From: Streptomyces griseochromogenes
GTDB lineage: Bacteria; Actinomycetota; Actinomycetes; Streptomycetales; Streptomycetaceae
Length of the DNA: 64,000 nt
Assembly (NCBI RefSeq): GCF_001542625.1
Contig: NZ_CP016279.1
Location: 8,928,001 to 8,992,000 of the forward strand
Reading direction: 5' to 3'
Under the pieces are notes generated by a model that ran no database searches, was not told the DNA's origin, and saw only the letters and a list, made by a program, of their open reading frames with translations. The position numbers were made by a program, and so were the translations under genes. Below are positions 16,531 through 55,944 of this stretch, piece by piece. Positions within the stretch are counted from its first letter, which is position 1. Every line of letters starts with the position of its first letter.

Positions 16531-17877
16531 GTGACGGCGACACCCCGAGGGGCCTCCGGTCCGGTCCGTGACACCCTCACCCTGATGATCCTGCCGGTGC
16601 TGGCCGCGCTGGCGCTGCCCGCCGCGTTCGCCGGCGGTGGCACCCGGCGCTGGTTCGGCGGACGGTCGGAGGGCCTGCGGGCCGAGGCGCAGGCCGCGAA
16701 GGACGCGGCGGCCGCCGCGTTCTACGAACTCGACACCGCTCAGCGCGACCTCAGGATCTCCGTCGAGACCATCACGGCGGTCGACGACTCCCCCGCCGCC
16801 CGGCGCGCGGTCGCCGACTTCGAGGCGCTGGGCCGGCGGATCGACGAGGTCAGCCGGCAGTACATCCAGGCCGTCGACGCCCATGACCTCGACCGGGACG
16901 ATCTGGAGGCCGGGGCTGCCGCCCGCGCGCGCGGCGAGTTGACCGCGGCCAAGGACGAACTGGTCCGGGTCAGGCAGGAGCTGGACCGTTTCGGCAGCTC
17001 GCTGGCGCCGCTGCTCGGCAAGGCCGAGACGCAGCTCGCCCGGGTCGCCCCCGCCGTGGAGCGGGCCCGGCAGGCGCTGCTGGGCGCGAGCAACGCCCTG
17101 GACGCGGCGCGGCAGACGGGCCTCGCGGCCGAGGATCTCGCCGCGCGCCTCGCCGCCCTCTCCCCCGAGCTGACGAAGCTGAACCAGGGCGCCGGCCGGC
17201 ACGGCGTGGCGCAGACGCTGGAGCGGGCCGAGCGGGTGCAGCGGGAGGCCGCGGCGATCCGGGCGGAGGCCGAGCGGCTGCCTCAGAAGGCGGCCGAGAT
17301 CGATCACCGGCTGGTGAGCCTGCGTACCCGCGCGCAGGCGCTGACGACCCGGGCGGGCCAGGTCGACCCGGTGCTGAGCGAGCTGCGGCGGCGGTTCGCG
17401 GCCGCCTGCTGGCAGGATCTGCAGCAGGTGCCCGCGCAGGCCACGGAGAACGTACGGCAGGCCGAGCTGAAGCTGCGCGAGGCCCGGACCGCCCGGGACG
17501 CCCAGCGCTGGGCGGACGCCACTTCACTGCTGTCGACCGTGCGGGCCCTGCTGAACAGCACCGACGAGGCGGTGTCGGCCGCCGGTGACCGGCTGAACCG
17601 GCTGAACACGGTGCAGAAGGACCCGCAGCAGGAGATCGAGCGGACCCGGTTCGCGATCCGGGACGCCCAGCGGCTGGCCATGACCGGGCGTACGGCCCCG
17701 GATCCGCGGCATGCGCGGCCGCTGGACGACGCGGTGGCCCGGCTGGAGCGGGCGGCCGGCACGCTGGAGGGCCGGCACCCCGACTACTGGCACTTTCTGA
17801 CCGAGACCGAGGCCGTGCGGCGGACGGCGGCCCGGGTGGTGGCACAGATCCGCGAGGAGCGCGGCGGCGTCCACTGA
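16531..17877 (+). CDS. Membrane-anchored long coiled-coil protein
   Basis: 448 residues. A single hydrophobic helix (LMILPVLAALALPAAFAGG) lies close to the N terminus. The remaining ~410 residues are almost continuous alpha-helix with Ala/Glu/Arg heptads, for example LRAEAQAAKDAAAAAFYELD, ERARQALLGASNALDAARQT and RAERVQREAAAIRAEAERL. It looks like a spectrin-like or TPM-associated coiled-coil scaffold at the membrane; no enzymatic motif is visible. The GTG start has GGAGAGGG 5 bases upstream. It follows the DUF4097 lipoprotein by 74 bases on the same strand, so a shared envelope role is possible. Confidence 0.75.
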   Translation: MTATPRGASGPVRDTLTLMILPVLAALALPAAFAGGGTRRWFGGRSEGLRAEAQAAKDAAAAAFYELDTAQRDLRISVETITAVDDSPAARRAVADFEALGRRIDEVSRQYIQAVDAHDLDRDDLEAGAAARARGELTAAKDELVRVRQELDRFGSSLAPLLGKAETQLARVAPAVERARQALLGASNALDAARQTGLAAEDLAARLAALSPELTKLNQGAGRHGVAQTLERAERVQREAAAIRAEAERLPQKAAEIDHRLVSLRTRAQALTTRAGQVDPVLSELRRRFAAACWQDLQQVPAQATENVRQAELKLREARTARDAQRWADATSLLSTVRALLNSTDEAVSAAGDRLNRLNTVQKDPQQEIERTRFAIRDAQRLAMTGRTAPDPRHARPLDDAVARLERAAGTLEGRHPDYWHFLTETEAVRRTAARVVAQIREERGGVH

Positions 17878-19658: not shown

Positions 19659-19766
19659 TGATGTTCCCCTCTACACCGGTACACCTACCGGGGGAGGGCA
19701 TCTTCGCATGACATGTGTGGCTGTTGTGAAGGGGGTTGCACAAGTGGAACCGACGCCCCGCCGACG

Positions 19767-21098: not shown

Positions 21099-21110
21099 GG
21101 GCCTCGGGGG

Positions 21111-23339
21111 TCAGCCGAGGCCCATGGCATGAGCCCAGATGCCGTACGGGACGTCGTCGGCGGACGTGCCGGCGAGGCCCTTGAGCGGCAGCGGTTCGAG
21201 GCTCTTGGCCAGGTCCATGCGGTAGACGACGACGGCGGTCGACACCGAGGCGGACGTGCCGGCGTACCAGGCGGCGGTGTCGTCCTCGGTGGTGCCCGCC
21301 TTGCCGGCCGCGGCCGGGCCGGACGCGGCCGCCGGGTGGGTGGTGCGCAGGGAGTCCGCGAGTGCCTGGGAGACGTCCTCGGCCACCTGGGCGCCGACCG
21401 CCCGCCGCGGGGCGGGGGTGCTCAGATGGACCGCCGCGCCGTTGCGGGTGATGCGGCGCACCGAGTACGGCTCGGTGTGCATGCCGGCGGCGGCGAACGT
21501 GGCGTACCCACTCGCCATCCGGATCGCGCTGGGCGTGGAGTTGCCCAGGGTCAGGGCGGGAACCTGCGGACCCATGCTGGAGTCGAGCAGGCCCGCCGCC
21601 ACCGCGGTCTCGCGCACCTTGTCCAGGCCCGTGTCCATGCCGAGCTGCATGAACGGCGTGTTCACCGACTGTGCGAGGGCCTTGCCCAGCGTGATCTGCC
21701 CGTAGGACTTGTTGCCGTCGTTGTGGGCGGTCACCTTCCGGCCGCTGCGGTCCCAGTAGGGGCCCTCGGGCGTGGTGACGGCGACGCCGTCGTCGCCGTC
21801 GTACACCGTCTCGGGCGTGACGGGCGTCGGAGGTCCGCCGCGGGTCTTGCGGACTCCGTGTTCCAGTCCGGCGGCGTAGTCGAACGGCAGGAACGCCGAG
21901 CCGGCCTGGACGGTGGCCGCGTTGGACTCGTTGTAGCCCTGCTTGCGGTGGTCGGGGCCACCGTAGACGGCGAGGATCCGGCCGTCGGCGGCGACCGAGG
22001 CGGCACCGTAGTGGGCGGTCTTCGCCGCGCCGGCGTGGCCCCGCTCCGCCTGCTTGCGGGCCTTGGTCACGGCGTCGGTCAGCGCCGTCTCCCGCTTGCG
22101 GTCGAAGGTCGTGTAGATCTGGTAGCCGCCGAGGTCGAAGTCCCGGTCGGAGATGTGGCCGGCCTTCTTGGCGTACTGCTGGGCCAGCTCCACCAGGTAG
22201 TCGCTCTGCTTACCGGTGTCGTAGACGCGCCCCGCCCTGAGCGGCTCGGGGAACGTCTTGTACCGGGCGCGCTGGGCCGGAGTCAGTTTGCCGATGTCGA
22301 CCATCCGGTCCAGGATCCAGGACCAGCGCGCGACGGCCCGCTTGTGATTGGCCGCACTGAGGGTGGGGTCGTAGAGCGCGGCGCCCTTGAGCATGGAGGC
22401 GAGCACTGCCGCCTCGCCGGCGTTGAGCTGACTGACGTCCTTGCCGTAGTAGGCCTGGGAGGCGCGCTGGATGCCGTAGGTGCCGCGGCCGAACCAGCTG
22501 GTGTTGAGGTAGCCCTCCAGGATGTCGTCCTTGCTCATCTTGTTGTCGAGCTTGAGGGAGATCATCGCCTCGGTGAACTTGCGGCCGAGGGTCTGGTTCT
22601 GGTTCAGGTAGACGTTCTTGACGTACTGCTGGGTGATGGTGGAACCGCCCTCGGTGTCCCCCTCCCCGATGGTCCGCCACACGGCGCGGCTGATGCCTTT
22701 GACGGAAATGCCGGGATCGGAGTAGAAGCTCGCGTTCTCCGCCGCGAGCACCGCCCAGCGGACCTGCTCGGGTATGTCCTTGAGGGGCATGTCCTGGCGC
22801 CGCACCCAGCCGGTACGGGCCATCGGCGTCCCGTCCGACCAGAAGTAGACGTTGTCCTGCTGGGTGGCGAAGGTGTTGAGGTTCTTCGGTATGTCCGTCA
22901 TCTCGTAGGCGACGACGAGGAACAGACCGAGCAGGACGAAGCCCGACAGCGTGGAGCCGAGCCACTGGCGCCAGGAGGGTATCCAGCGGCGCCAGCCGGT
23001 GCGGCCGGGGCGCGGGTACAGCGGCTTGAGCCGCCGGGCGTACGGGGCGAGCGGAGCCAGCCGCGGACCCGCGGTGGCCCGCAGGCGGTCGAGTGCCGCC
23101 GTGGCGGCGCCGGTGGCACGGCTGTGCACCGGCAGGCGGGCGCTGCGCCGCCGCTCGGCACGTCCGCCGGCGGCGGGTGGCTCCGGTGACGGGGGCACAC
23201 GCAATTGCATGGTGGCATCCGCACGGAGGGCGTCGACCCTCAGATGCAGGGTCTCGTCCGCCTTCGGTGGCTGCCGCTCCTCGGACCGGGCGCTGTCGTC
23301 GTCCTCGCGGCCGTCTGACCGCTGCCCTGACTCGGCCAA
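21111..23339 (-). CDS. Class A penicillin-binding-protein-like glycosyltransferase with aberrant transpeptidase motifs
   Basis: 742 residues: a disordered cytosolic N terminus, a helix (WLGSTLSGFVLLGLFLVVAY), a GT51 transglycosylase and a transpeptidase-like domain. GT51 motifs are intact: AAENASFYSDPGISVKG, GGSTITQQYVKNVYL and EGYLNTSWFGRGTYGIQRAS. In the transpeptidase part, the S-x-x-K box reads Ser481-Ala-Phe-Leu484 (AGSAFLPFDYAAGLE), so the general-base Lys is lost. S-x-N is present (AQSVNTPF), and K-T-G is K-A-G (GKAGTTEDD). It may polymerise glycan without crosslinking it. The start is TTG 23339 with GGGGAG 8 bases upstream; the frame upstream has no coding character. It is translated just ahead of the deacetylase-like gene. 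Confidence 0.87.
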   Translation of the reverse strand: MAESGQRSDGREDDDSARSEERQPPKADETLHLRVDALRADATMQLRVPPSPEPPAAGGRAERRRSARLPVHSRATGAATAALDRLRATAGPRLAPLAPYARRLKPLYPRPGRTGWRRWIPSWRQWLGSTLSGFVLLGLFLVVAYEMTDIPKNLNTFATQQDNVYFWSDGTPMARTGWVRRQDMPLKDIPEQVRWAVLAAENASFYSDPGISVKGISRAVWRTIGEGDTEGGSTITQQYVKNVYLNQNQTLGRKFTEAMISLKLDNKMSKDDILEGYLNTSWFGRGTYGIQRASQAYYGKDVSQLNAGEAAVLASMLKGAALYDPTLSAANHKRAVARWSWILDRMVDIGKLTPAQRARYKTFPEPLRAGRVYDTGKQSDYLVELAQQYAKKAGHISDRDFDLGGYQIYTTFDRKRETALTDAVTKARKQAERGHAGAAKTAHYGAASVAADGRILAVYGGPDHRKQGYNESNAATVQAGSAFLPFDYAAGLEHGVRKTRGGPPTPVTPETVYDGDDGVAVTTPEGPYWDRSGRKVTAHNDGNKSYGQITLGKALAQSVNTPFMQLGMDTGLDKVRETAVAAGLLDSSMGPQVPALTLGNSTPSAIRMASGYATFAAAGMHTEPYSVRRITRNGAAVHLSTPAPRRAVGAQVAEDVSQALADSLRTTHPAAASGPAAAGKAGTTEDDTAAWYAGTSASVSTAVVVYRMDLAKSLEPLPLKGLAGTSADDVPYGIWAHAMGLG

Positions 23340-23577
23340 GGCTGCGTCTCCCCTCGCAGTGGTGCTTGCGCGCGCGGTCAGACTCAGCAGAAGGACACGG
23401 CCGCGCTGGTGGGCGCGGCGCGATGGACCCCCCTCATCCCCCGGTCTTACGGCTCCTCGCGGTTCAGCCAAGCTATCAGCGATCTTTTCAAAATCTCCGC
23501 ACAAGTATCGGGCAGATCCGAACACTCATGAAACTTTGAACCGCTGTGAGCAGCGCCACTCCGGTTAACCTGTGCCT

Positions 23578-23784
23578 ATGCCTCGCTACGAGTACCGCTG
23601 CCGCACCTGCGGCGACACATTCGAACTCAGCCGTCCCATGGCGGAGTCCGCCGCCCCCGCGAGCTGCCCCGCGGGGCATGACGACACGGTGAAGCTGTTG
23701 TCGACGGTGGCCGTGGGGGGCTCGTCCACGGCCCCGGCCCCCGCCGGTGGGGGCGGGTGCTGTGGTGGAGGGTGCTGCGGCTGA
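23578..23784 (+). CDS. FmdB-type zinc-ribbon protein
   Basis: 68 residues. MPRYEYRCRTCGDTFELSRP is the FmdB zinc-ribbon opening, and the second metal pair comes from SCPAGHDDTVKLLSTVAVGG. The tail is Gly/Cys-rich (GGGGCCGGGCCG). FmdB-like regulators are named after a formamidase gene neighbour; most have no known role. The Cys-rich tail could bind additional metal. The ATG at 23578 is preceded at 6 bases by TAACCT, matching a leaderless promoter. It is divergent from the PBP-like gene. Confidence 0.87.
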   Translation: MPRYEYRCRTCGDTFELSRPMAESAAPASCPAGHDDTVKLLSTVAVGGSSTAPAPAGGGGCCGGGCCG

Positions 23785-23798
23785 TCAGAGCGGTGCGT

Positions 23799-24611
23799 TC
23801 AGGCGGGCTGCCGTGCCGCTCGTAGAAACTCCCGTAGGATCCGCTCCCCCGCCAGGACCCCACGCTCCGGCAGCGCGCTGATCTGCGGTGCGCTCCAGCC
23901 GGCGTCGGCCAGCTCGCCGTGTCCCGGGCGCCAGCCCTGGTCGGCGGCGAGCAGCAGGTCGGCGTCGAGCAGGGAGTCCCCGGCGGCCAGGATGAGCTCG
24001 GCGCCGGTGCGGCGGGCGACCTCGCGCACGGCCGCGCTCTTGGTGAGCGGCTTCGGGACGGCGTAGATCTTGCGGCCCTGGAGCGAGACCGTCCAGCCCC
24101 GGTTCTCCGCCCAGACCGCCAGCTCCTTCACCCAGTCCTCGGGCAGCAGCTCGCGTTCGACGACCAGATAGGCGAACAGGTCCTCGGCGACCCGGTGCTT
24201 GCGCACCCAGGCGGGGTCGGCGGAGCTCGACAGGTGCTCGCGGATCTCCTCCAGCGGCGCGCACTCGTCGGCGAGCCGCGCCAGCACCGAGGCGTGCCAG
24301 TCCTGGTCCGTGACGCCGTCGACCAGCAGATGCCCGCCGTTGGCGCAGATCGCGTACGCCGGCTGGGGTCCTGGCAGGTTGATGCGCTGGTACTGCTTGC
24401 GGGTGCGGGTCGTGGTCGGCGCGAAGACGGCCGCGTCGCCGACGTCGGTCAGCAGCTGGGCCGCGGTCTCCGTCAGGTAGGACAGCGGCTTGCTCTCGTG
24501 GACCTCGACACAGAGCAGCCGGGGCGCCCGCGCGTCCGGCATGGTCAGCGCCAGGGCCGCCGAGGAGTAGATCAGCGTGCGGTCGAGGTCGCTCGCCACC
24601 AGCACCGGCAT
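23799..24611 (-). CDS. HAD-superfamily hydrolase of the Ter biosynthetic module
   Basis: 270 residues. Motif I is VLVASDLDRTLIYSS (Asp-x-Asp), a long cap domain follows, Lys occurs in KIYAVPKPLTKSAAVREV, and motif IV is LILAAGDSLLDADLLLAAD. The layout resembles the Cof/sucrose-phosphatase (type C2 cap) group. The ATG overlaps the stop of the upstream phosphoribosyltransferase gene (ATGA), so the two are translationally coupled. In the Ter-associated modules described by Anantharaman, Iyer and Aravind, such HAD enzymes are predicted to dephosphorylate a nucleoside-like intermediate; the actual substrate is unknown. Confidence 0.85.
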   Translation of the reverse strand: MPVLVASDLDRTLIYSSAALALTMPDARAPRLLCVEVHESKPLSYLTETAAQLLTDVGDAAVFAPTTTRTRKQYQRINLPGPQPAYAICANGGHLLVDGVTDQDWHASVLARLADECAPLEEIREHLSSSADPAWVRKHRVAEDLFAYLVVERELLPEDWVKELAVWAENRGWTVSLQGRKIYAVPKPLTKSAAVREVARRTGAELILAAGDSLLDADLLLAADQGWRPGHGELADAGWSAPQISALPERGVLAGERILREFLRAARQPA

Positions 24612-27139
24612 CAGACGTTCACCGCCTTGCCGTCGGCGCCCGTGGCGCCCCGGGTGTACTTGGGGTGGATCAGCCCCACGCAGGTGTACGGCAACTCGCC
24701 GACCTCCTCCACCGGAACCCCTCTCTGCTCGGCCAGCAGCCGTACGTGGTCGAGGTCGGCGCCCGCGCCGGCCTTGGCCAAGATCTTCCACGGCACCCGG
24801 CGCAGCAGCACCCGGGTGGTCTCGCCGACGCCGGGCTTGACGAGGTTCACGTCGTGGATGCCGTACTCCTCGCTGATCCGCTCGACCGCCCGCCAGCCCG
24901 CCCAGGTCGGGGATCGGTCCTCGGCCATCAGCTCCTTGACCGCCGTGCCGACCGTACCGGCCACCTCCGGGAAACGGGCGGAGACGGCGTCGAGGAAGGC
25001 CACGGAGACATCGGCGCCGGCGAGTTCGCGGTAGAACTTGGCGCCGTGGAAGTCATGCGGGCCGACCAGGTCCGCGCGCAGGACCGTACGCGAAATCAGG
25101 CCGGAAACCGTCGAGTTGAGGCAGGCGGACGGGATGAGGAAGTCCTCGCGGGTGCCGTAGGTGCGCACGCAGGAGCCCGGGTCGGCGAGTACGGCGATCT
25201 CCGGGTCGAAGCCCGTGATGCCCTCCTTCGCCTCGAACTCCTCGACGGCCTGGGCGAGTTCGCGGGATATCGCGCCCTTTCCGGTCCAGCCGTCGACGAA
25301 GACGACGTCCCTCGGGTCGTGGTGGGCGGCGAGCCAGCGCAGCGCGTTGGCGTCGATGCCGCGGCCGCGGACGATCGAGACGGCGTAGTGCGGGAGGTCG
25401 AGGCCGTGCCGGAACTGGGCCCAGCGGCGCATGAGCACACCGACCGGGGTGCCCGCGCGGGCCAGGGAGACCAGCACCGGGCGCGGCGACCGCTCGGCGA
25501 TCACCGTCTCCGTCACCACGCCGACCGCCTGCGCGAGCCGGGCGGCCGAAGCGTCCAGGGCCGTGTGGAACAGATCCTGGTACTGCTCGCTCGGCTGGTA
25601 CTCCACCGGCAGCGACTCGGCGTAGTGCGCCCCGCCGCTCTGGATGGCCTCCTCCCGTTCCTCGGTCGGCGCCTCCAGGGTCACGTCCGAGAGGTCCTGC
25701 AGCAGCCAGCCGACCTCCTCGGGCGCGTACGAGGAGAAGGCGGGGCCGCGGAGGGGCTCGGGCAGCATGGCCGGCCTTTCGGAGAAGGAGCGGGGCTCGG
25801 GGACGTACGAGGGGACGACCACGAGCAGGACGTGCGGGGTGTGGGCCGCGAGACGGGCCGCCAGCCCGTCCGGGGCGTGCAGCAGGGGGGTGTCGGCGAC
25901 CGAGTCGACCACGGCGACGACGGCGTCGAAGCCGGCGCCCGCGACGTTGTAGGCGTAGCGCTCGCCGGGGCCGTCGGCCGGGTCGTCGTGGGCGGGGAAG
26001 GCCAGGCGGGTGCGTATCGCATAGCCCGGGTCGTCGACCGCGAGGACGGGCGAGCGCGTGGTGGTGGAGTAGCGCACCTCGGCGGGTATGAGCTGCTCCA
26101 GCTCGCGGGCCAGGCGCAGCGGGGCGTACATCAGCTCCTCGAAGCCGAGGACGAGGACGCGGCGGGCGCCGGTGGGCAGCGCGTCCGCTGTTCGAGCGGC
26201 CATCTGGGGCAGCGCGGCCTCCAGGCGGGCTCGGTGGGCGGGCGTGAAGCCGTGCCGGCCGCCGTCGGGGAGGCCTGGGGGCCAGTGGAGGTCGACCTTC
26301 ACGACTCTGCCCGACCGGTGCGCCCCCTCAGGGGCGCGGGGCGAGACGTCATGCGGCTCCGCCGCGCGGCCGGGACCAGCCACCACGGACCCGCAACCGG
26401 CCACCGGCGTATCGTCGGCGGACGCGTACCGCGCGACCAGCTCCTGCCCCTTCTCCAAGACGCCTTCCGGCAACCGCACAGTCCCGGACGCGGCGGCGAT
26501 GAGATCCACCCGCGCCCCGATCTCATCCGCGAACCGCTCCATCCGCGCGACGTCATCGGCGGAACGCATATCGACCAGGGCCACCACCACATACCGCCGC
26601 CGCGGATACCGTTCGTGCAGGTCACGGATGGTGTTGAGGACCGTGCTGCCCGTGGAGAACTCGTCGTCGACCAGGACCAGCGGACCGTCACCGGCCAGCA
26701 GAGCCGGGTCTTCCGGCAGCAAGAGGTGCGACGTGGCGTGGGAGTGCGACTCCTCGAAGCCGCCCGCCCGGGCGACCCCGGCCACCGGACGGCGCGTGGA
26801 GTGCAGGTACGGGGCGGGGCCCAGGCCGTCGGCCACCGAATGGCCCAGCCCCGTGGCGGTCTCCGCATAGCCGAGGACGACGGCCCGGGCGGCCTCCGCC
26901 TCGCCGAGCAGCGCGGCGACCCGGCGGCCCAGGCGGATTCCATGGCCGTAGACCACGGACGGCGACTGCGGCACGTGCTTGCCGAGCACGTTCGAGACCA
27001 GCAGATGGGCCCGCTTGGGGTTGCGGCGCAGCGCGAGCCCCAGCAGGGCCCTGAGCCCGTCGTCGCCCTCCAGTTCGACCCCGAGTCGCTCGGCGACCCA
27101 GCTGCCGGACCAGACCCCGTCGTTCACTGCGTGATTCAT
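24611..27139 (-). CDS. PRTase_2-TRSP-StiP/PRTase_1 fusion protein of the Ter module
   Basis: 842 residues. Residues ~30-235 form a phosphoribosyltransferase with the PRPP loop LVLVDDEFSTGST (154-166). Residues ~285-420 contain the TRSP domain (YSTTTRSPVLAVDDPGYAIR), known to follow PRTase_2. The C-terminal ~370 residues match the StiP/PRTase_1 family: FSSYAPEEVGWLLQDL, VLVSLARAGTPVGVLMRRW, DVVFVDGWTGKGAISREL and FLIPSACLNSTVSGLISRT. These parts are often separate genes; here they are one chain. Residues ~257-273 (RAAEPHDVSPRAPEG) come from an interspersed repeat lying in frame in the linker. The aldolase gene is 22 bases upstream and the HAD gene overlaps downstream, forming one operon. Confidence 0.88.
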   Translation of the reverse strand: MNHAVNDGVWSGSWVAERLGVELEGDDGLRALLGLALRRNPKRAHLLVSNVLGKHVPQSPSVVYGHGIRLGRRVAALLGEAEAARAVVLGYAETATGLGHSVADGLGPAPYLHSTRRPVAGVARAGGFEESHSHATSHLLLPEDPALLAGDGPLVLVDDEFSTGSTVLNTIRDLHERYPRRRYVVVALVDMRSADDVARMERFADEIGARVDLIAAASGTVRLPEGVLEKGQELVARYASADDTPVAGCGSVVAGPGRAAEPHDVSPRAPEGAHRSGRVVKVDLHWPPGLPDGGRHGFTPAHRARLEAALPQMAARTADALPTGARRVLVLGFEELMYAPLRLARELEQLIPAEVRYSTTTRSPVLAVDDPGYAIRTRLAFPAHDDPADGPGERYAYNVAGAGFDAVVAVVDSVADTPLLHAPDGLAARLAAHTPHVLLVVVPSYVPEPRSFSERPAMLPEPLRGPAFSSYAPEEVGWLLQDLSDVTLEAPTEEREEAIQSGGAHYAESLPVEYQPSEQYQDLFHTALDASAARLAQAVGVVTETVIAERSPRPVLVSLARAGTPVGVLMRRWAQFRHGLDLPHYAVSIVRGRGIDANALRWLAAHHDPRDVVFVDGWTGKGAISRELAQAVEEFEAKEGITGFDPEIAVLADPGSCVRTYGTREDFLIPSACLNSTVSGLISRTVLRADLVGPHDFHGAKFYRELAGADVSVAFLDAVSARFPEVAGTVGTAVKELMAEDRSPTWAGWRAVERISEEYGIHDVNLVKPGVGETTRVLLRRVPWKILAKAGAGADLDHVRLLAEQRGVPVEEVGELPYTCVGLIHPKYTRGATGADGKAVNV
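26321..26388 (-). repeat. Interspersed repeat copy inside a coding sequence
   Basis: This copy has the two parts of the repeat family seen at 29325, 48592, 51316 and 61350: a GGGGCGCGGGG block and an ATGCGGCTCCGCCGCG hairpin followed by a GACCAGCCAC block. It lies in frame within the fusion gene and encodes the linker peptide RAAEPHDVSPRAPEG. Confidence 0.7.
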
Positions 27140-27161
27140 GCGTTCCTTGGGTTGGGAAGGG

Positions 27162-28328
27162 TCAGCCGGGTATTCCGGCGGCGAGCAGCTCCACGAAGCC
27201 GACGTCCTCGCGCGCCACGCCGAACACCTCGGCGCGCAGCAGGGTCCGCTCGGCCCACGCTCGGTGCGGCTTCACTTCGTTCATCTTGTTCGTGTAGGCC
27301 GACCGGAGTACACCCCCGCCGCCGCGTTCCGGTCTCAGGATGTCCTGGGCGTCGCTGAACTCCTCGTGGCTGACCACGGACAGCGCGTGCACGGGCAGGA
27401 CATGGGAGGGGTGGATGCAGGTCTTGCCGAGCAGGCCGTTGGCCTGGTCAAGGGAGATCTCCCGCAGCAGCCCGTCCATCGCGTGCTCGATGAGCTTCTC
27501 GCGCAGCGCCACGGCCTGTACCTCGAGGAACGGGCTCTGCCGCAGCTGCGGTTTGAACATGCGCTCCGGGACCCGGAAGTACTCCCACACCGGCCCGGTC
27601 ACGGTGAACCCGGTGCCGTCGGCCCGGCCCAGCATGTTGACCACGTCGGCGATCACGGAAGCGACTATCTGCACGTCGTACGCGGTCATGTCGGGGGCCC
27701 GGCGCAGGCCGTAGGAGGAGCAGAAGTCGGTGACGCCCAGGCGCAGCGCGAGGACCCGGTCGCGGTACTTGTCGACCGCGCGGAAAATGCCTTCCAGCGT
27801 GTCCACCCGGGACTCGCGGTACAGCAGCTCGGGCGACTCCAGGACCGGCATGGCGAAGAGCCTGCGCCCGCTCTGGTTCTCCGCCGCGGTCAGGGCCTCC
27901 AGGAAGAAGATCCCCCGCTCCTCGGTGAACTTGGGCATGACGAAGCCGGACAGCAGCCGTACGGAGGCGCCGAGGCGCCGTACGAGGTCGGGGATCTGCT
28001 CGGGGGCGCGCACCCGGATGAAGAGCAGCGGCAGCTCCGCCCCCGCTCGGGAGTCGAGGTCGGCGAACTGCCGGACCAGGTTCTCCTCGCCCTCCACGAC
28101 GTCGGCGTCGTCGATCGAGTCCTCCAGGCACAGCACCATCGAGACCACGCCGTTGCCGGCCTGCTTGACGATGTCGTCGGCGAGCCTCGGCCGGGTCGCC
28201 GGGCTGTAGAGCGTGGCGCCCAGGGCCGCGGAGAGCAGCCGGGCCGGGGAGTCGGCGGTGAAGGCGCACGGCTCCTGATGGAAAAGGCGCTGCCGCACCT
28301 CGGGGGCGATATGCCCGAAATGACGCAT
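27162..28328 (-). CDS. HpcH/HpaI aldolase / citrate-lyase-beta family protein of the Ter module
   Basis: 388 residues with the TIM-barrel pattern of CitE/HpcH enzymes. Recognisable pieces are LGATLYSPATRPRLADDIVK, VVSMVLCLEDSIDDADV (acidic metal ligand), LLFIRVRAPEQI, GFVMPKFT, LFAMPVLESPELLYRE (Glu ligand) and LRLGVTDFCSSYGLRR. They cleave or form C-C bonds on acyl-CoA or 2-keto acids. In Ter-linked modules the family accompanies PRTase and HAD genes, and is predicted to act in making a nucleoside-like metabolite. The ATG at 28328 has a GAGGAG 5 bases upstream. It is first in a three-gene operon and divergent from the TerD-PQ gene. Confidence 0.87.
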   Translation of the reverse strand: MRHFGHIAPEVRQRLFHQEPCAFTADSPARLLSAALGATLYSPATRPRLADDIVKQAGNGVVSMVLCLEDSIDDADVVEGEENLVRQFADLDSRAGAELPLLFIRVRAPEQIPDLVRRLGASVRLLSGFVMPKFTEERGIFFLEALTAAENQSGRRLFAMPVLESPELLYRESRVDTLEGIFRAVDKYRDRVLALRLGVTDFCSSYGLRRAPDMTAYDVQIVASVIADVVNMLGRADGTGFTVTGPVWEYFRVPERMFKPQLRQSPFLEVQAVALREKLIEHAMDGLLREISLDQANGLLGKTCIHPSHVLPVHALSVVSHEEFSDAQDILRPERGGGGVLRSAYTNKMNEVKPHRAWAERTLLRAEVFGVAREDVGFVELLAAGIPG

Positions 28329-28502
28329 AGGACTCCTCAGTGCGCAAGCCGAGCTGGGGATTCGGTAAAGGGTGGCCGGTAATAGTACGTAGGGGCCCAT
28401 GTCGGGGGTTCCCCCCGGGCGTGAATTTCCGGTAACTCGCCCGTGTAGGCACCAACACCCCCCGCATTGTCGTGGCCAGGACGGAGAAGGCAGGATGACG
28501 GC

Positions 28503-29312
28503 ATGACGCACGCGATGCTGAAGGGGTCCAACGTCCCGCTGGAAGCCACCACGGTGCGCGCCGTGCTGCGCTGGACACCCGGGCAGGGAGTCCCGGACGT
28601 GGACGCCTCGGCGCTGCTGCTGGGTCCTGACGGCCGGGTACGCTCCGACGAGGACTTCGTCTTCTACAACCAGCCCCGGCATCCGTCCGGCAAGGTCTGG
28701 CGCCTCGGCAAGAAGCGGATCACCGAGGGGCTCACCGACACGATCCAGTCAGATCTCGCGGGGGTCGAGCCGGAGGTGGGCCGCATCCTGCTGGTGGCCT
28801 CCGCCGACGGTGTCTCCTTCGACCGCGTCCCGGCGCTGTGCATCTTCCTGTACGACGCGGCCGTCGCCGACTCCGAACCGCTGGCCCACTTCGAGATCAA
28901 GCCGGAGACGGGTGCGGAGACCGCGCTGATCTGCGGCGAGCTGTACCGGCGCGGGGAGGGCTGGAAGTTCCGCGCGCTCGGCGAGGGCTACTCCAACGGT
29001 CTGAAGGGTCTCGCCACGGACTTCGGCATCTCGGTCGACGAGTCGGAGTCGGAGCCGGAGCAGGAGGAGCCGCACCAGCCCCTGCCCGAGACCACGTCCC
29101 AGCCCCTGCCTCCCGAGCAGCCGACGACCGTCCCGCCCCAGGCGGCGTACGGCTATCCCCAGCCGGCCTCGCCCCAGCAGCCGACCTACGGCTACCCGCA
29201 GCCGACGAGCCAGCCCGCCTACGGCTATCCCCAGCCCCAGCCGGCCCTGGCGGCGCCCCTGGACCCCGGCTTCCGCCTGCCGCCCCAAGGGCCACAATTC
29301 ATCGGGCGCTAG
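28503..29312 (+). CDS. TerD-domain protein with Pro/Gln/Tyr-rich repeat tail
   Basis: 269 residues. Residues 1-180 are a TerD domain: [35 protein letters not shown] (Ca2+-binding acidic loop), [33 protein letters not shown] and [14 protein letters not shown]. An acidic linker ([12 protein letters not shown]) leads to a tail with repeated YGYPQP units, probably disordered. TerD folds are Ca2+-binding modules of membrane-associated stress complexes. The ATG at 28503 is chosen because the TerD domain starts there; GGAGAAGG lies upstream. It is the only plus-strand gene of the Ter group and shares its promoter region with the aldolase operon. Confidence 0.9.
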
Positions 29313-29324
29313 GGAAAGCCGACC

Positions 29325-29390
29325 CGGGGGCGCGGGGCGATACATCATGCGGTTCCGCCGCGCGGGCGCGACGAGCCACGGCGGACCGGC
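29325..29390 (+). repeat. Interspersed intergenic repeat copy
   Basis: GGGGGCGCGGGG then CATCATGCGGTTCCGCCGCG and GGGCGCGACGAGCCAC follow the TerD-PQ stop codon. The arrangement matches the other copies in the window. The GCGG-TTCC-GCCGC portion can form a small hairpin. Confidence 0.7.
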
Positions 29391-29429
29391 ACCCGCACAC
29401 GCACACGCAAGCTCCGAGCCAGAGAGCGC

Positions 29430-30164
29430 CTACTTCTCCGCCTTCGACTTGTAACCGCGTCCCCAGGACAGCCCCCACCCGTACAGCCGGTCCAGCTCGC
29501 CCTGGAAGCCGTACACGAACTTCACCTCGCGCCGGACCACCAGCTCGCCCCTGACGTTCTCGATCATCACGACCGCGCACGAGCGCGCCTGCGGATGCCG
29601 CTCGTCCAGGCCTATCGCGATACGGGGGCCGTTGCTGGGGTAGAGCGTCACGATCGCGTGCGTGCGGTCGAAGGCCGGCGTCTGGTCGTAGATGTACACG
29701 AAGACCAGCAGGCGCTTGATCGCGTCCCGGTGGTCCAGGTTGACGTACATCGTCTCGCCGGACGCCGATCCGAACCGGTCGTCCCCGCTGAGCTTGATGT
29801 ACGGCGGTGCGTTGACGTCGCCCAGATAGCCGCCGAGCGGCTGGACGACCCCCTTCGTGCCGTCGGACAGCTCGTACAGGCAGCCCAGGTCGAGGTCGAC
29901 GTTGACCATGCTCTGCCCGTGCCCCAGCACTTCCGGCGGCTTGAGCGCCTTGAAGGGGTGCCGGAAGAGACTCGTGCGCTCGTTGGTGTCGAAGTCGGAG
30001 GTGCGCATCCGCCAGGTCAGGTTGATGCGCAGATGGCCGGTGGCCGCGTCCTGCTTGGTGAGTGACACCTGCTGGTGCCGCCTGGTCAGCTCGATCGCGT
30101 TGGTCGCGGCGCTGCCCGAGTCGAAGTCGGCCCGAGCGCCCAGCAGCCCGTCGAAGAATCCCAT
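29430..30164 (-). CDS. TerA-like tellurium-resistance family protein
   Basis: 244 residues. It begins MGFFDGLLGA and shows the TerA/TerD-like beta-sandwich pieces LRINLTWRMRTSDFDT, MVNVDLDLGCLYELSDGT (the DLDLG acidic motif), YIKLSGDDRFG, RLLVFVYIYDQTPAFD and RSCAVVMIENVRGELVVRR, ending in an aromatic block LDRLYGWGLSWGRGYKS. TerA proteins act with TerD paralogues and the TerC membrane protein; the molecular task is unsettled. A perfect terminator hairpin sits between this gene and the upstream DUF475 gene, so it should have its own promoter in 30165-30194 or depend on read-through. Confidence 0.85.
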   Translation of the reverse strand: MGFFDGLLGARADFDSGSAATNAIELTRRHQQVSLTKQDAATGHLRINLTWRMRTSDFDTNERTSLFRHPFKALKPPEVLGHGQSMVNVDLDLGCLYELSDGTKGVVQPLGGYLGDVNAPPYIKLSGDDRFGSASGETMYVNLDHRDAIKRLLVFVYIYDQTPAFDRTHAIVTLYPSNGPRIAIGLDERHPQARSCAVVMIENVRGELVVRREVKFVYGFQGELDRLYGWGLSWGRGYKSKAEK

Positions 30165-30194
30165 TCCCGCCCCCAGGTACTCATATCAACGCCT

Positions 30195-30223
30195 CGGGGC
30201 GGCCGACCACGTCGGCCGCCCCG
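30195..30223 (-). terminator. Hairpin between the DUF475 and TerA-like genes
   Basis: A perfect 13-bp stem (CGGGGCGGCCGAC, loop CAC) lies 85 bases beyond the DUF475 stop and 31 bases before the TerA-like start codon. It is a good terminator or attenuator for transcription coming from DUF475. Confidence 0.75.
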
Positions 30224-30308
30224 AACAGAGCGTTCCTCACCGAACGGGGTACCACACCCCGCCGCGTCCCTGATCTTGCCCGTAGGGGGCCGCAGGGGAG
30301 GCCGGAGG

Positions 30309-31454
30309 TCAGACTCCGGACGAGATCTCGGCCTTCTCGTCCGAGCCCGCCTCTCCTTCCGCGGCCGCGAGGACGCGGTTGCGGCGGACGGAGGACCAGA
30401 AGGACCAGGCGATCAGGACGACGCCGACGAGACCGGTGATGACCTCGTGGATCTCGTACTGGATGGTGACCATGAGGATCACGGCCAGGGCGCCGATCGC
30501 GTAGTGGGCGCCGTGCTCCAGGTAGACGTAGTCGTCGAGGGTGCCCTGGCGGACCAGGTAGACGGTGAGCGAACGGACGTACATCGCGCCGATGCCCAGG
30601 CCCAGCGCCATCAGGACGATGTCGTTGGTGATGGCGAAGGCGCCGATCACGCCGTCGAAGGAGAAGGACGCGTCCAGGACCTCCAGGTAGAGGAACATGA
30701 AGAACGCGGCCTGACCGGCCAGGAGCACCGCGGAGCGCTGCTTGCCGCTGCGGGCGGCCTCTTCCTCCTCCTCGTGCTCGCGTTCCTCCTCTTCCTCCAG
30801 CCGGTCCTCGAAGTAGCCGGAGAGACCGCCGACGATCATGTATGTGATCAGGCCGGCGATGCCGGCGATCAGGACCGTCTGGCCCTTGTCCACATGGGCG
30901 CCGCCGTGCTGGTGGGCGTGGGTGGCGAAGGTGAAGGAGGTGATCAGCAGGACGACCAGGGAGATGCAGACCGACAGCATGTCGACCTTGCCGAGCTTGG
31001 CCAGGGGCCGCTCGATCCAGCGCAGCCACTGGATGTCCCGGTCCTCGAAAATGAAGTCGAGGAAGATCATCAGCAGGAACATGCCACCGAAGGCGGCGAT
31101 CGCCGGGTGGGCGTCGGTGACCAGCTGCTGGTAGCGGTCCTTGTTGTTGAGAGCGAGGTCGACGGCCTCGATCGGGCCCATCTTGGCGGTGATCGCGACG
31201 ATGACGACGGGGAAGACCAGCCGCATGCCGAACACCGCGATGAGCACGCCGACCGTGAGGAAGATCTTCTGCCAGAAGGCATTCATCTTCTTCAGGACTC
31301 CGGCGTTGACCACCGCGTTGTCGAACGACAGCGAGATCTCGAGGACGGAGAGGATCGCCACGATGCCGAAGGCCTCCCACCCCCCGTAGAAGACCGCAGC
31401 GACCAGACCGACCGCGGTAACCGCGAACGACCAGCCGAAGGTTTTGAGAAGCAC
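30309..31454 (-). CDS. DUF475 (TerC-like) integral membrane protein
   Basis: 381 residues with about nine transmembrane helices. The TerC-superfamily signature appears twice: AILSVLEISLSFDNAVVNAG in the first half and LYLEVLDASFSFDGVIGAFA in the second. The acidic residues within the helices suggest metal binding or transport. A long loop of Glu/Arg (EDRLEEEEEREHEEEEEAAR) and a His-rich piece (ATHAHQHGGAHVD) separate the halves. It is the likely membrane partner of the TerD and TerA-like proteins here. The GTG at 31454 has only a weak GGGGTAG upstream. It lies 161 bases downstream of a TerD gene. Confidence 0.9.
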   Translation of the reverse strand: MLLKTFGWSFAVTAVGLVAAVFYGGWEAFGIVAILSVLEISLSFDNAVVNAGVLKKMNAFWQKIFLTVGVLIAVFGMRLVFPVVIVAITAKMGPIEAVDLALNNKDRYQQLVTDAHPAIAAFGGMFLLMIFLDFIFEDRDIQWLRWIERPLAKLGKVDMLSVCISLVVLLITSFTFATHAHQHGGAHVDKGQTVLIAGIAGLITYMIVGGLSGYFEDRLEEEEEREHEEEEEAARSGKQRSAVLLAGQAAFFMFLYLEVLDASFSFDGVIGAFAITNDIVLMALGLGIGAMYVRSLTVYLVRQGTLDDYVYLEHGAHYAIGALAVILMVTIQYEIHEVITGLVGVVLIAWSFWSSVRRNRVLAAAEGEAGSDEKAEISSGV

Positions 31455-31615
31455 TGGCTACCCCATCGTGTTGGTACGGGTCTCCCCCGTGCCGTACTCA
31501 GCTTTGCGAAACGTTGACCACGAGTGTAGAGGGGCACCCCGTAAGGGACTGCAGCCAGGGCGACCTGCGGGGAAAAGCCACAGATCGCGCTGGTCAGCGT
31601 CCCTTGACCCCGGTT

Positions 31616-32194
31616 TCAGGAAACGTTGACCCCGAAGTCCAGGGCGATGCCCCGCAGCCCGGAGGCGTAGCCCTGGCCCACCGCCCGGAACTTCCATTCA
31701 CCCTGGTAGCGGTAGAGCTCGCCGAAGATCATGGCCGTTTCGGTGCTGGCATCCTCGCTGAGGTCGTAGCGGGCGAGCTCCTGGCCGTCGGCCTGGTTGA
31801 CCACACGGATGAACGCGTTGGAGACCTGGCCGAAAGTCTGGCCGCGCTCGTCGGCCATATGGATGGAGACGGGGAAGATGATCTTCTCGCAGGTGGCCGG
31901 CACCTTCAGCAGGTCCACCAGGATCGACTCGTCGTCGCCCTCGCCCTCACCGGTGAGGTTGTCACCGGTGTGCTCCACCGAGCCGTCCGGGCTCTTGAGC
32001 TGGTTGTAGAACACGAACCACTCATCACCCATGACCCGGTTCCCCGCGCCGCACAGCAGGGCGCTGGCGTCCAGGTCGAAGGGGGCGCCGGTGGTCGAGC
32101 GCGCGTCCCAGCCGAGCCCGATCGTGACGTTGGTGAGGTTCGGTGCGGCTTTGGAGAGGGAGACATTGCCTCCCTTGGCGAGCGTGACGCCCAT
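31616..32194 (-). CDS. terD: TerD family protein (second tandem copy)
   Basis: 192 residues, a single canonical TerD domain: [40 protein letters not shown] (first acidic Ca2+ loop), [28 protein letters not shown] (second acidic loop), [20 protein letters not shown] and [15 protein letters not shown]. TerD binds Ca2+ and supports resistance to tellurite, phage and other stress; in Streptomyces several paralogues affect development. It is highly similar to the adjacent copy at 32294-32869, so a tandem duplication is clear. A 14-bp hairpin lies in the 99-base gap between the two. Confidence 0.93.
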
Positions 32195-32235
32195 ATCGAT
32201 GGTCCTCCCCTAGTGGTGCTTCCCTGGTTTCCTGC

Positions 32236-32274
32236 ACGTCCGGCGCCGCCCGTAAACGGTGCGGCGCCGGACGT
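32236..32274 (-). terminator. Hairpin between the two tandem terD genes
   Basis: ACGTCCGGCGCCGC and its exact complement flank CCGTAAACGGT, which can extend the stem by CCGT/ACGG. It lies 20 bases past the upstream terD stop and may act as a terminator or attenuator. Confidence 0.75.
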
Positions 32275-32293
32275 CGGGTGGAGCTGTCAGGTG

Positions 32294-32869
32294 TCAGACA
32301 TTGACGCCGAAGTCCTGCGCGATGCCGCGCAGGCCCGAGGCATAGCCCTGCCCGATGGCACGGAACTTCCACTCCGCGCCGTTCCGGTACAGCTCGCCGA
32401 AGACCATCGCGGTCTCGGTGGAGGCGTCCTCGCTCAGGTCGTAGCGGGCGATCTCCTGCTCGCCCGCCTGGTTGACGACGCGGATGAACGCGTTGCGGAC
32501 CTGACCGAAGGACTGCTGGCGGTTCTCGGCGTCGTAGATCGACACCGGGAACACGATCTTGTCGACGTCGGCCGGGACAGCGGCCAGGTTGACCTTGATC
32601 TGCTCGTCGTCGCCCTCGCCCTCACCGGTGATGTTGTCGCCGGTGTGCTCGACCGAGCCGTCGGGGCTCTTGAGGTTGTTGAAGAAGACGAAGTGCTGGT
32701 CGCTCGCGACCTTGCCGGAGTTGTTCAGCAGCAGCGCGCTGGCGTCGAGGTCGAAGTCGGTGCCGGTCGTGGTACGCACGTCCCACCCCAGACCGACGAT
32801 GACCGCGGTCAGGCCCGGGGCCTCCTTCGTCAGCGATACGTTGCCGCCCTTGCTGAGGCTGACTCCCAC
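32294..32869 (-). CDS. terD: TerD family protein (first tandem copy)
   Basis: 191 residues, again one complete TerD domain: [89 protein letters not shown] and [15 protein letters not shown]. Both acidic loops for Ca2+ are kept. The GTG start at 32869 is set by GGAGGACCC right before it. Longer in-frame starts would run into the upstream non-coding region. It is the first gene of the minus-strand terD-terD-DUF475 run. The promoter probably lies within 32870-33000. Confidence 0.93.
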
Positions 32870-33008
32870 GGGTCCTCCATGTGGTGTCCAGGGGCGGGGA
32901 GCCCCGTCGTGCTTCGGATATGGGATCAACGTGCCGATCCTAGTGACGGGTTCCCGCACCCGCAGACCCTGGACCCGGTGAATCACAGGTGTCGGCCGGC
33001 GGGCCCGG

Positions 33009-33467
33009 TCACAGGGTGTCGAGCGCCTTCACGTAGTCGTTCAGGTCACGGGCGTCCGGCAGGCCGTTGATCACGGTCCACCGCACGACGCCCTCCTTGT
33101 CGATGATGAAGGTGCCCCGGACGGCGCAGCCCTTGTCCTCGTCGAAGACGCCGTAGGCGCGCGAGACGTTGCCGTGCGGCCAGAAGTCGCTCAGCAGCGG
33201 GTACTCGAGACCCTCCTGCTCGGCGAAGACGCGCAGGGTGTGGATGGAGTCGTTGGAGACGGCGAGCAGCTGGGTGTCGCGGTCCGAGAACTTCGGCAGG
33301 TTGTCGCGCAGCTCGCACAGCTCGCCGGTGCACACGCCGGTGAAGGCGAAGGGGTAGAAGAGCAGCACCACGTTCTTCTCGCCGCGGAAGTCGGCGAGCT
33401 TCACGGTGCGGCCGTGGTTGTCCTTGAGCTCGAAGTCGGGCGCCTTGTCGCCGACCTGGATCGCCAT
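33009..33467 (-). CDS. Thiol peroxidase of the AhpE/PrxQ type
   Basis: 152 residues with a thioredoxin-like fold: [72 protein letters not shown] and [16 protein letters not shown]. The peroxidatic Cys sits in FTGVCTGE, and a second Cys five residues later (C-T-G-E-L-C) matches the resolving position of PrxQ/Bcp. The overall sequence resembles mycobacterial AhpE. It would reduce peroxides in the cytosol. The ATG at 33467 has GAAGGG 10 bases upstream. It is placed between the Ter group and the DUF3052 gene on the same strand. Confidence 0.9.
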
Positions 33468-33566
33468 CGTCGTGCATCCCTTCGGTGGGCTGATCGGGTG
33501 AGAGCACACAAACGCTCGGAACCACCCTACGCAGCGATCACCGCGGGTCCACCGCAGGCTTCCGGA

Positions 33567-33588
33567 CGGGCCGGGTACTCCCGGCCCG
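33567..33588 (-). terminator. Hairpin after the DUF3052 gene
   Basis: CGGGCCGGG and its complement around TACT form a perfect 9-bp stem 36 bases past the DUF3052 stop. It separates that gene from the peroxiredoxin gene. Confidence 0.65.
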
Positions 33589-33623
33589 CCCGCCGCCCCT
33601 GGGACGAGGCGGTTTGCCGCTCG

Positions 33624-34064
33624 TTACTTCTTGCCGGACTTCGCGGCCTTCGGCGTCGCCAGACGCGAGCCACTCCAGTCCTTGCCGACGCTGACGCTCT
33701 TGGACGCGGTGAGGCCGGCGGTCGTCGCGGCTTCCGAGATGTCGCTCGGCTCCACGTACCCCGTACGGCCGGTCTTCGGCGTGAGGAGCAGGATGGCGCC
33801 GCCCTCTTCGATGTAGGTGGTGGCATCCACCAGTACATCGGTCAGGTCGCCGTCCTCGTCACGGAACCACAGCACGACGGCGTCGGCCACATCGTCGTAG
33901 TCCTCGTCCATGAGGTCGCTCTCGATGGCTTCCTCGATGGCCTCGCGAAGCTCCTGATCGACGTCGTCGTCGTAGCCGATCTCCTGGACCACCTGCCCGG
34001 GCTGGAACCCCAGCCTGGCGGCAGGGTTCGTCCGCTCCTCCGCGTGGTCCGCGGTCGCGCTCAC
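33624..34064 (-). CDS. DUF3052 family protein
   Basis: 146 residues: ARLGFQPGQVVQEIGYDDDV opens the domain, followed by a strongly acidic stretch (EAIEESDLMDEDYDDVADAV broken by hydrophobics), VVLWFRDEDGDLTDVLVDA and GGAILLLTPKTGRTGYVEP. DUF3052 is an actinobacterial family that usually sits beside aceE, as here. The role is unknown; a link to the pyruvate dehydrogenase is only suggested by this position. The GTG start at 34064 has AGGAGG 7 bases upstream. It is divergent from aceE. Confidence 0.85.
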   Translation of the reverse strand: MSATADHAEERTNPAARLGFQPGQVVQEIGYDDDVDQELREAIEEAIESDLMDEDYDDVADAVVLWFRDEDGDLTDVLVDATTYIEEGGAILLLTPKTGRTGYVEPSDISEAATTAGLTASKSVSVGKDWSGSRLATPKAAKSGKK

Positions 34065-34479
34065 GGGTTGCCTCCTGATCATGTCTTGATGAGTATCTCA
34101 GCCACGCGCGTGCGCGAAGCATTGGCCGTAGTCCACACGGGCGGGACGGATCGCGCAAGTACCCGGCCGTCCAGACCGCCGAAACGGTGACGATCCCGGC
34201 CGTGTCGTCGCAACTCCTGGCACCGTATCCCGATTCATCGTGACCCACATCACACCGATGTGCCCGCTTTGCGTGATTTGGAATCATCAGCGAATACGGC
34301 CGTCGAACAACTTTGCCATGCCCGTCACACCCCGGGCGTATCGTTGCGTTTTGACCGGACCCGGCTTTCGGTTACCCCACGGTAGAGATGACGTGGGCCC
34401 TCCCTAGGTACACGATGGGGAACGGTGTAGGCACGAGCGAAAAGTCAAAAAAGCGCCCCTCTGACAGGTAAGGAACAGC
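34065..34479. other. Divergent intergenic region between the DUF3052 gene and aceE
   Basis: This 415-base stretch holds no gene. It is less GC-rich than its surroundings near aceE (AAAAGTCAAAAAAGCG at about 34440-34455) and must contain both divergent promoters. TTGACC near 34352 is a possible -35 toward aceE, but no convincing -10 lies at the right distance. I saw no clear operator palindrome. Confidence 0.6.
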
Positions 34480-55596: not shown

Positions 55597-55944
55597 TCAC
55601 TGGTCCCAGGCGTGGGCGAGGGCCTTGCTGATCACGCCGACGGTGGCGAAGACGGCCGCGCAGGCGTGTGCCCCGGCCGCGTACAGCGCCAGGGCGCCCG
55701 CGCCGAACCAGAGCGCTTCGAAGGCGAAACGGGCCGCGCCCCGCACCTTGAACCTGGCTCGCGGGGACCCGAACAGCCCCCACAGCCGGCCGAGGGCGCC
55801 CGCCCCGAGGAAGCCGATCAGGAGGCCGACCGTGCCGCCCCGGGCGAACCCCAGGTAGCAGACGGATCCGAGCACGCCGAGTTCCAGCAGGAACACGACG
55901 CCGAGGTTCACGGCCTTCGCTGTCTTCACGCGCGGCAGTATCAC
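55597..55944 (-). CDS. DUF2568 small membrane protein
   Basis: 115 residues with four hydrophobic helices: NLGVVFLLELGVLGSVCYLG, GLLIGFLGAGALGRLWGLFG, FAFEALWFGAGALALYAAG and ACAAVFATVGVISKALA. The central GSPRARFKVRGAARF loop is typical of DUF2568. The function is unknown. The GTG at 55944 overlaps the stop of the RidA remnant (GTGA), which suggests that it was once translationally coupled to that gene; GTG 55929 is an alternative start. Because its former upstream partner is truncated, its current promoter is unclear. Confidence 0.8.
   Translation of the reverse strand: MILPRVKTAKAVNLGVVFLLELGVLGSVCYLGFARGGTVGLLIGFLGAGALGRLWGLFGSPRARFKVRGAARFAFEALWFGAGALALYAAGAHACAAVFATVGVISKALAHAWDQ

Follow-up and report, generated by a model that had tools for sequence, protein, structure and literature searches.

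What does an operon make when its enzymes are encoded next to genes of the Ter stress system? The question is raised by a locus of Streptomyces griseochromogenes in which a fused phosphoribosyltransferase (PRTase) gene, a lyase and a phosphatase stand beside TerD- and TerC-type genes. The stretch analysed here (the window) comprises 64,000 nucleotides (G000:C1:8928001-8992000, on NZ_CP016279.1, the single contig of a 10.76-Mb, high-GC genome; the GC content of the window is 71%). The locus belongs securely to a Ter module proposed earlier, of which it is a conserved variant with two enzyme genes fused, and is not a new system. The operon probably makes a ribose-bearing small molecule; that it is the Streptomyces form of a Ter module making a riboside derived from phosphoribosyl pyrophosphate (PRPP) is the best explanation of the whole, to which we give about an even chance. 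The enzymes are encoded as follows:

27162..28328, minus strand: C-C bond lyase (HpcH/CitE-like TIM barrel), first operon gene; 388 residues; PF15617 (C-C_Bond_Lyase), E 5.2e-121
24611..27139, minus strand: fused enzyme gene; 842 residues; Pfam matches, AlphaFold model, fold matches
27046-26483, minus strand: PRTase_2 domain of the fused enzyme; Pfam E 9.8e-68, residues 32-219
26266-25880, minus strand: TRSP domain; Pfam E 2.9e-40, residues 292-420
25735-24983, minus strand: StiP/PRTase-like domain; Pfam PF11202, E 7.4e-107, residues 469-719
24904-24665, minus strand: PELOTA_1 (PELOTA/L7Ae-like) domain; Pfam E 1e-34, residues 746-825
23799..24611, minus strand: HAD-fold phosphatase; 270 residues; match to structure 6cj0, HAD motifs

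The lyase and fused genes are separated by 22 bases, and the ATG of the HAD gene (24611) overlaps the stop of the fused gene by one base, which bears out the initial annotation of this DNA, where lyase, fusion and HAD genes were read as one operon with overlapping or 22-base junctions. The PRTase_2-TRSP-StiP fusion described there is indeed a real single protein of 842 residues, but a fourth domain, PELOTA_1, had been overlooked. All 20 hand-picked twelve-kilobase loci from the same genus show the identical order DUF475, TerA-like, TerD-PQ (divergent), lyase, PRTase_2-TRSP-StiP-PELOTA, HAD, and both TerD genes ahead of this core are present in 17 of them. PRTase_2 itself is found in 146 of 150 same-genus genomes, including this one; the four genomes lacking it are assemblies in 550-1380 contigs. 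Thus, the system is poorly understood, as the initial annotation had it, but it is not unusual for this genome, being a near-constant locus of the genus.

Of the features that mark the Ter biosynthetic module, the following are present: a PRTase_2-TRSP unit, StiP with a C-terminal PELOTA domain, a TIM-barrel lyase, a HAD phosphatase, and linkage to TerD/TerC-type genes. Anantharaman, Iyer and Aravind reportedly proposed in 2012 that this Ter-linked module makes a nucleoside-like metabolite. The gene set supports the connection to that proposal drawn in the initial annotation, the enzyme genes co-occur with ter genes elsewhere, also in other phyla, and no demonstrated chemistry was found in the open-licence literature searched, in agreement with the annotation. 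The available text of PMC7824862 restates the 2012 idea, with PRTases and HAD enzymes making a nucleoside or nucleotide signal that TerB/TerD might sense, and with TerC acting at the membrane.

The AlphaFold model of the fused enzyme has a predicted local distance difference score (pLDDT) of 89.7 and a predicted template modelling score (pTM) of 0.73; residues 245-263 form a disordered linker. The PRTase_2 domain combines the PRPP loop [DE]DE..TG.T with the PRTase fold, as expected of type I phosphoribosyltransferases, and appears APRT-like in the model. The TRSP domain looks like a repeat of the PRTase_2 core that has degenerated; no PRPP-synthetase-like tandem resembling PRTase_2-TRSP was among the structural matches listed.

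The predicted fold of StiP is PRTase-like, followed by an L7Ae-like part, as judged from the AlphaFold model and structure search. Its best-scoring structural match is CriT (11.1 and 10.0, compared with 9.5 for PyrR); according to the available part of PMC10299916, CriT and CrpP are the ribofuranosyltransferase-phosphatase pair of Bcs3, and CriT is active without a DD motif. The loop DGW-x-GKG is invariant in the StiP alignment (95 rows, 92 distinct), and all 95 rows likewise retain R561, R591, D616 and K621, together with further polar residues in the putative pocket. Nevertheless, several observations weigh against a CriT-like catalytic StiP. The canonical DD...TGxT loop was not found, its place being taken by DGW-x-GKG, so that StiP is called here PRTase-like rather than a canonical type I member, with its catalysis a prediction from the model. 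The lead of CriT over PyrR is small (scores within 1 count as tied), and the CriT alignment extends into the L7Ae-like part of StiP. Foldseek yields no match for StiP at E<=0.001, CriT being absent among the 50 matches that it lists, and comparing the StiP profile with that of PRTase_2 gives no support for homology (hhalign probability 0.7%). A search of PDB sequences with the StiP profile gives L7Ae-type matches and a few chance ones, with no PRTase.

An alternative is that StiP is an RNA-binding regulator on a PRTase fold, PyrR-like, sensing PRPP or a nucleotide, with PRTase_2 as the sole catalyst. PyrR accounts for 13 of the 50 matches listed in the structure search that ranked CriT first, roughly as many as HGPRT-type entries, the StiP loop is non-canonical, and the L7Ae-like domain, which looks like an RNA-binding-type domain, contains a conserved ETTR...RR stretch. 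We nevertheless consider this reading unlikely, because the pocket residues are retained in every row, beyond the need of a degenerate sensor, and because CriT works without the DD motif.

Under the Pfam name of PF11202 and many NCBI names, StiP is a cysteine protease, and the operon would accordingly be a stress proteolysis system. This is barely credible: no cysteine is invariant among the 95 rows (the best column has Cys in 86 and Ile, Leu or Ala in the other nine), the predicted fold is PRTase-like plus L7Ae-like, and PMC5571608, in its available part, describes a PRTase of a Ter operon that ends in a PELOTA/L7Ae domain. The protease identity was therefore rejected, and the label on many database records looks wrong. 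The same available text credits the Ter authors with the PRTase-PELOTA/L7Ae link and tallies Pfam ‘PRTase_1’ and PELOTA_1 10 times each; from these counts, the ‘protease’ name may have been given later to what was probably called PRTase_1. StiP as a PRTase and PELOTA as an L7Ae-like domain are, on the evidence of that text, already published ideas; the likeness of StiP to CriT was not found in the open-licence literature, an absence that proves little.

The enzymes flanking the fusion have well conserved putative active sites. For the lyase, the start is the ATG at 28328, conserved among relatives, the listed open reading frame of 506 residues being too long. The initial annotation had it as an HpcH/HpaI aldolase; by structure it comes nearest to the acyl-CoA, malyl-CoA and citrate lyases, with E values from 1.5e-4 to 4.4e-3, and residues E69, D70, R105, R107, E164 and D201 are each found in 92 of 93 aligned rows of approximately 200-250 residues. 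The HAD protein has no Pfam family above the cut-off, and its earlier assignment as a HAD hydrolase gains support from the match to the trehalose phosphatase structure 6cj0 (E 2.1e-11) and from D8, D10, T12, K191, G211, D212 and D216, invariant in 70 of 70 rows (T67 in 68). We take the invariant residues to be covered by HAD motifs I, III and IV, with T67 presumably in motif II; this, like any assignment of conserved lyase or HAD residues to metal ligands or motif names, is assumed from general knowledge of these families.

Taken as a PRPP-derived riboside pathway, the operon could work as follows. An extracytoplasmic function (ECF)-type sigma factor would read a stress signal and switch the operon on. 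The lyase would supply or trim an acyl acceptor, the APRT-like PRTase_2 and the PyrR/CriT-like StiP would transfer ribose-5-phosphate from PRPP to an acceptor, and the HAD enzyme, in the role that CrpP plays for CriT, would then strip the 5-phosphate. The riboside left after dephosphorylation, the most likely product, would be sensed by TerD proteins, which would bind it as a signal or protectant, with binding coupled to the DUF475/TerC membrane protein and a coiled-coil scaffold. The L7Ae-like tail could tie StiP to RNA or to a ribonucleotide ligand, and the fusion of PRTase_2-TRSP with StiP-PELOTA would fix at 1:1 the ratio of subunits that are elsewhere separate and adjacent, and may channel an intermediate. 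A bolder version, which we regard as quite improbable, makes the fused enzyme an RNA-tethered ribosylation machine: CriT-like StiP, held on structured RNA by the L7Ae-like domain, would act with the APRT-like domain, the HAD enzyme and the lyase to ribosylate an RNA-bound or otherwise new acceptor (the product being an O- or C-riboside instead of a conventional nucleoside); its switch would be a sigma factor that, at the promoter stringency used here, has one site in each genome.

The full fused protein has a match in 191 of 200 genomes of this bacterial family; at least 77 near-full-length single matches are among those listed (a hand count that includes the window and one sequence with an internal stop), the remainder being partial, many beginning near linker residues 245-263. 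Of the top-scoring 30 loci (L002-L031), 28 could be assessed, the other two being truncated by contig ends; a single open frame encodes the fusion in 25 of these 28, and L015, L017 and L026 are split; another same-genus genome (L068) is also split. In two further genomes of the genus, L065 (4743/4747) and L067 (6243/6247), a lone in-frame stop parts PRTase_2-TRSP from StiP, which could be a natural fission or a read error. In another family, f3, two genomes of one genus have the fusion and two other genera have split genes; the two units are split in Mycolicibacterium as well. Across the phylum, StiP is found in 18 of 296 genomes (17 above the cut-off) and 6 of 192 genera, and StiP relatives are present in 2,567 of 72,556 plasmid records.

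A scan of a wider genome collection covered the best 80 of 589 confirmed loci, ranked by likeness to a Lachnospiraceae-type query and hence not a census (titles mostly Clostridia, a few plain ‘bacterium’, one Treponema). The fusion was seen in none of these 80; both halves are present in 75 and adjacent in 74 of the 75, L132 having the lyase between them. In L116:6827-9004 (Allobaculum mucilyticum), a single open frame spans PRTase_2-TRSP together with the lyase, and the module may thus include a second fusion. In the same 80 loci, the remaining partners are inconstant, which counts against the proposed riboside pathway: HAD is found in 46, the lyase in 51 and TerD in 43 (26, 30 and 30, respectively, of the 42 loci with full flanks). 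The gene set thus appears loose, with truncated contigs and profile sensitivity contributing to the partial counts. A further point against is that no ATP-grasp gene was detected among the scanned window neighbours; the best PF15632 match in the genome lies at 3.43 Mb, 5.5 Mb away, with three weak ones elsewhere. Because a linked ATP-grasp is not constant in the family (16 of the 80 loci), the locus is kept as a variant of the module. The distant match (G000:C1:3428656-3429030, L060) is an ATPgrasp_Ter protein (E 1.1e-33) that could supply the ATP-grasp step in trans.

Given that Ter systems have been linked to phage resistance and that jumbo phage ME3 has PRTase, HAD and StiP genes, the module might instead make an anti-phage nucleotide signal. 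We find this distinctly improbable: a locus present in 146 of 150 genomes of its genus is unlike a defence island, and PADLOC gives no match for seven of the eight proteins and a weak one (E 0.00017) for the coiled-coil protein. The record MT836648 (L054), labelled Bacteriophage sp., encodes a StiP 82% identical to a protein from a Lachnospiraceae metagenome-assembled genome, and may be bacterial.

Comparison of the DNA upstream of 24 loci reveals a conserved block, which in the window contains a dedicated promoter-like element:

28380..28412, minus strand: ECF-like promoter GGAAC-N18-CGTACTATTA, ending 51 bases before the ATG of the lyase gene

This is the sole exact match to the pattern in the 10.76-Mb genome. 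The pattern GGAAC-N17/18-CGTACKATTA matches exactly once in each of 124 of the 150 genomes of the genus; the other 26, of which 22 have PRTase_2 and four lack it, give no match. The reversed control has one match over all 150. Each of the 123 promoter positions compared, and likewise the window's own, is on the same strand as the operon and precedes PRTase_2 by 1.3-2.4 kb, at the place where the lyase begins (distances use low coordinates, so that minus-strand values include the PRTase_2 domain). The block alignment, of 55 sequences (54 loci, some sharing a genome, and the window), has 41 distinct rows; ten loci have no row, several of them, though not L164 or L170, being truncated upstream, and the remaining sequences duplicate a row already counted. 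Rows were selected by CGTAC[TG]AT[TA]A, so that those bases are fixed by selection; the conservation of GGAAC, of the A preceding CGTAC, of CCGGCC and, upstream, of GTTACC...TTCA does not depend on that choice. The motif is diagnostic only in full, because ACGTACTATTACCGG with up to two mismatches has four matches in this genome compared with five for the reversed control. The -35 GGAAC and the spacing point to a promoter for an ECF-type sigma factor, with an operator as the alternative on sequence grounds. No sigma-70 promoters were found in 21000-34500.

Control by sigma-E was considered and rejected: the -35 is compatible, but CGTAC at the -10 is unlike the sigma-E sites in the available part of PMC6767563, which are mostly CGTCT/CGTCC, and GGAAC-N16/18-CGTCT has a single window match at 55860, away from the operon (0.4 expected). 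The same available text reports that sigma-E targets the TerD gene sco2368 and that vancomycin raises the level of its protein; the available part of PMC7244524 places the SCO2367-68 proteins in a cluster differing between S. lividans and S. coelicolor, and that of PMC3765725 a conserved antisense RNA opposite sco2364. By gene order, the sco2368 neighbours would correspond to window genes, and sco2364 to TerD-PQ. This literature, as far as available, suggests, without proving, envelope or growth-arrest stress.

The Ter genes beside the operon are:

28503..29312, plus strand: TerD-PQ, divergent TerD-domain protein with a Pro/Gln-rich tail; PF02342, E 6.1e-43
29430..30164, minus strand: TerA C-terminal-like protein; weak TerD match (E 0.0096), TerA matches
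30309..31454, minus strand: DUF475/TerC-family membrane protein; PF04332, E 1.5e-140; PF03741, E 7e-20
31616..32194, minus strand: TerD protein; PF02342, E 2.7e-83
32294..32986, minus strand: TerD protein; PF02342, E 8.1e-88 from residue 42, true start likely near 32869

Pfam or TerA matches uphold all five gene assignments of the initial annotation, and its start for the second TerD gene at 32869 is close to the likely one. The divergent starts of the lyase (28328) and TerD-PQ (28503) are 174 base pairs apart. The 29430-30164 protein matches the C-terminal part of Klebsiella and Pseudomonas TerA (110 and 136 bits), and TerD-PQ is the counterpart of the N-terminal part of enterobacterial TerA, so that the two genes represent the halves of a single Klebsiella or Pseudomonas TerA. 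The TerD/TerC names, and the tellurite resistance conferred by terZ-F in Klebsiella (PMC8115787, available part), could suggest direct tellurite detoxification; this is very improbable for the operon, given that, in that text, terZ-F suffice, and the biosynthetic cluster lies on the opposite strand with no role assigned.

A further gene appears to belong to the module, although it lies outside the region initially annotated:

16531..17877, plus strand: coiled-coil (EzrA-like) gene, approximately 6 kb from the operon

Its EzrA-like Pfam match is below the cut-off, with no family above it. A homologue directly precedes the lyase in all five loci examined (four from f3 and a Mycolicibacterium plasmid); these proteins are annotated with 346 residues in frames of 400-448, and three of them, in which Pfam finds no family, match the window protein (E 3.8e-21, 1.2e-21 and 4.8e-17). 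Coiled coils match easily, so that the link to the module rests on position. The gene is present in 149 of 150 same-genus genomes, and within ~10.2 kb of PRTase_2 in 54 of 55 comparable ones (G001-G060, less G047, which lacks the gene, and four with it on another contig; the exception, by hand comparison, is G011). An ATP-grasp identity for the first gene of the f3 and Mycolicibacterium operons was rejected, Pfam showing none in three proteins, which group with the window coiled-coil protein. Neither this partner, nor the TRSP copy, nor the one-per-genome promoter was found in the open-licence literature, in which none was searched by name.

The locus is flanked by a penicillin-binding protein gene (21111-23525) on one side and by peroxiredoxin, DUF3052 and pyruvate dehydrogenase genes on the other. 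Named proteins among the close relatives are mostly from Streptomyces. Between the operon and the coiled-coil gene, 18483-23525 (minus strand) encodes the penicillin-binding protein, a 443-residue protein for which Pfam gives nothing at E 0.001, and a protein of the Amidase_6 family, possibly an envelope-stress neighbourhood. An Rfam scan of the window gives one tRNA and nothing else.

Ter stress systems are widespread, and in this genus, which is genetically tractable, nearly every genome has the module. The one-per-genome promoter indicates how to turn it on, the fusion which two enzymes work together, and the CriT/CrpP precedent offers a concrete assayable reaction, PRPP transfer followed by dephosphorylation.

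Among known systems, PyrR binds RNA through the PRTase domain itself, whereas StiP has a separate L7Ae-like domain. The Ter module of Klebsiella pK2044 shares PRTase_2-TRSP, StiP-PELOTA, lyase and HAD beside TerD/TerC/TerA, but as separate genes, with ATP-grasp first and TerB, TerY and PP2C nearby. The window differs from it in the fusion of two genes, the lyase-fusion-HAD order, TerA in two genes, the coiled-coil partner and the operon's own promoter, and, from both the Klebsiella and Pseudomonas modules, in having no linked ATP-grasp. Mycolicibacterium alvei plasmid pJCM12272 shares the order lyase, PRTase_2-TRSP, StiP-PELOTA, HAD, TerD, with DUF475 nearby, and differs in that PRTase_2-TRSP and StiP are two overlapping genes and the coiled-coil gene precedes the lyase. 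With CriT/CrpP (PMC10299916, available part), the likeness, at the level of predicted folds, is a PRTase-like fold that lacks the DD motif, with a HAD enzyme for the subsequent dephosphorylation; CriT, however, has helical bundles and a capsule polymer as its substrate, whereas StiP carries the L7Ae-like domain, and the window HAD protein resembles trehalose phosphatase in sequence.

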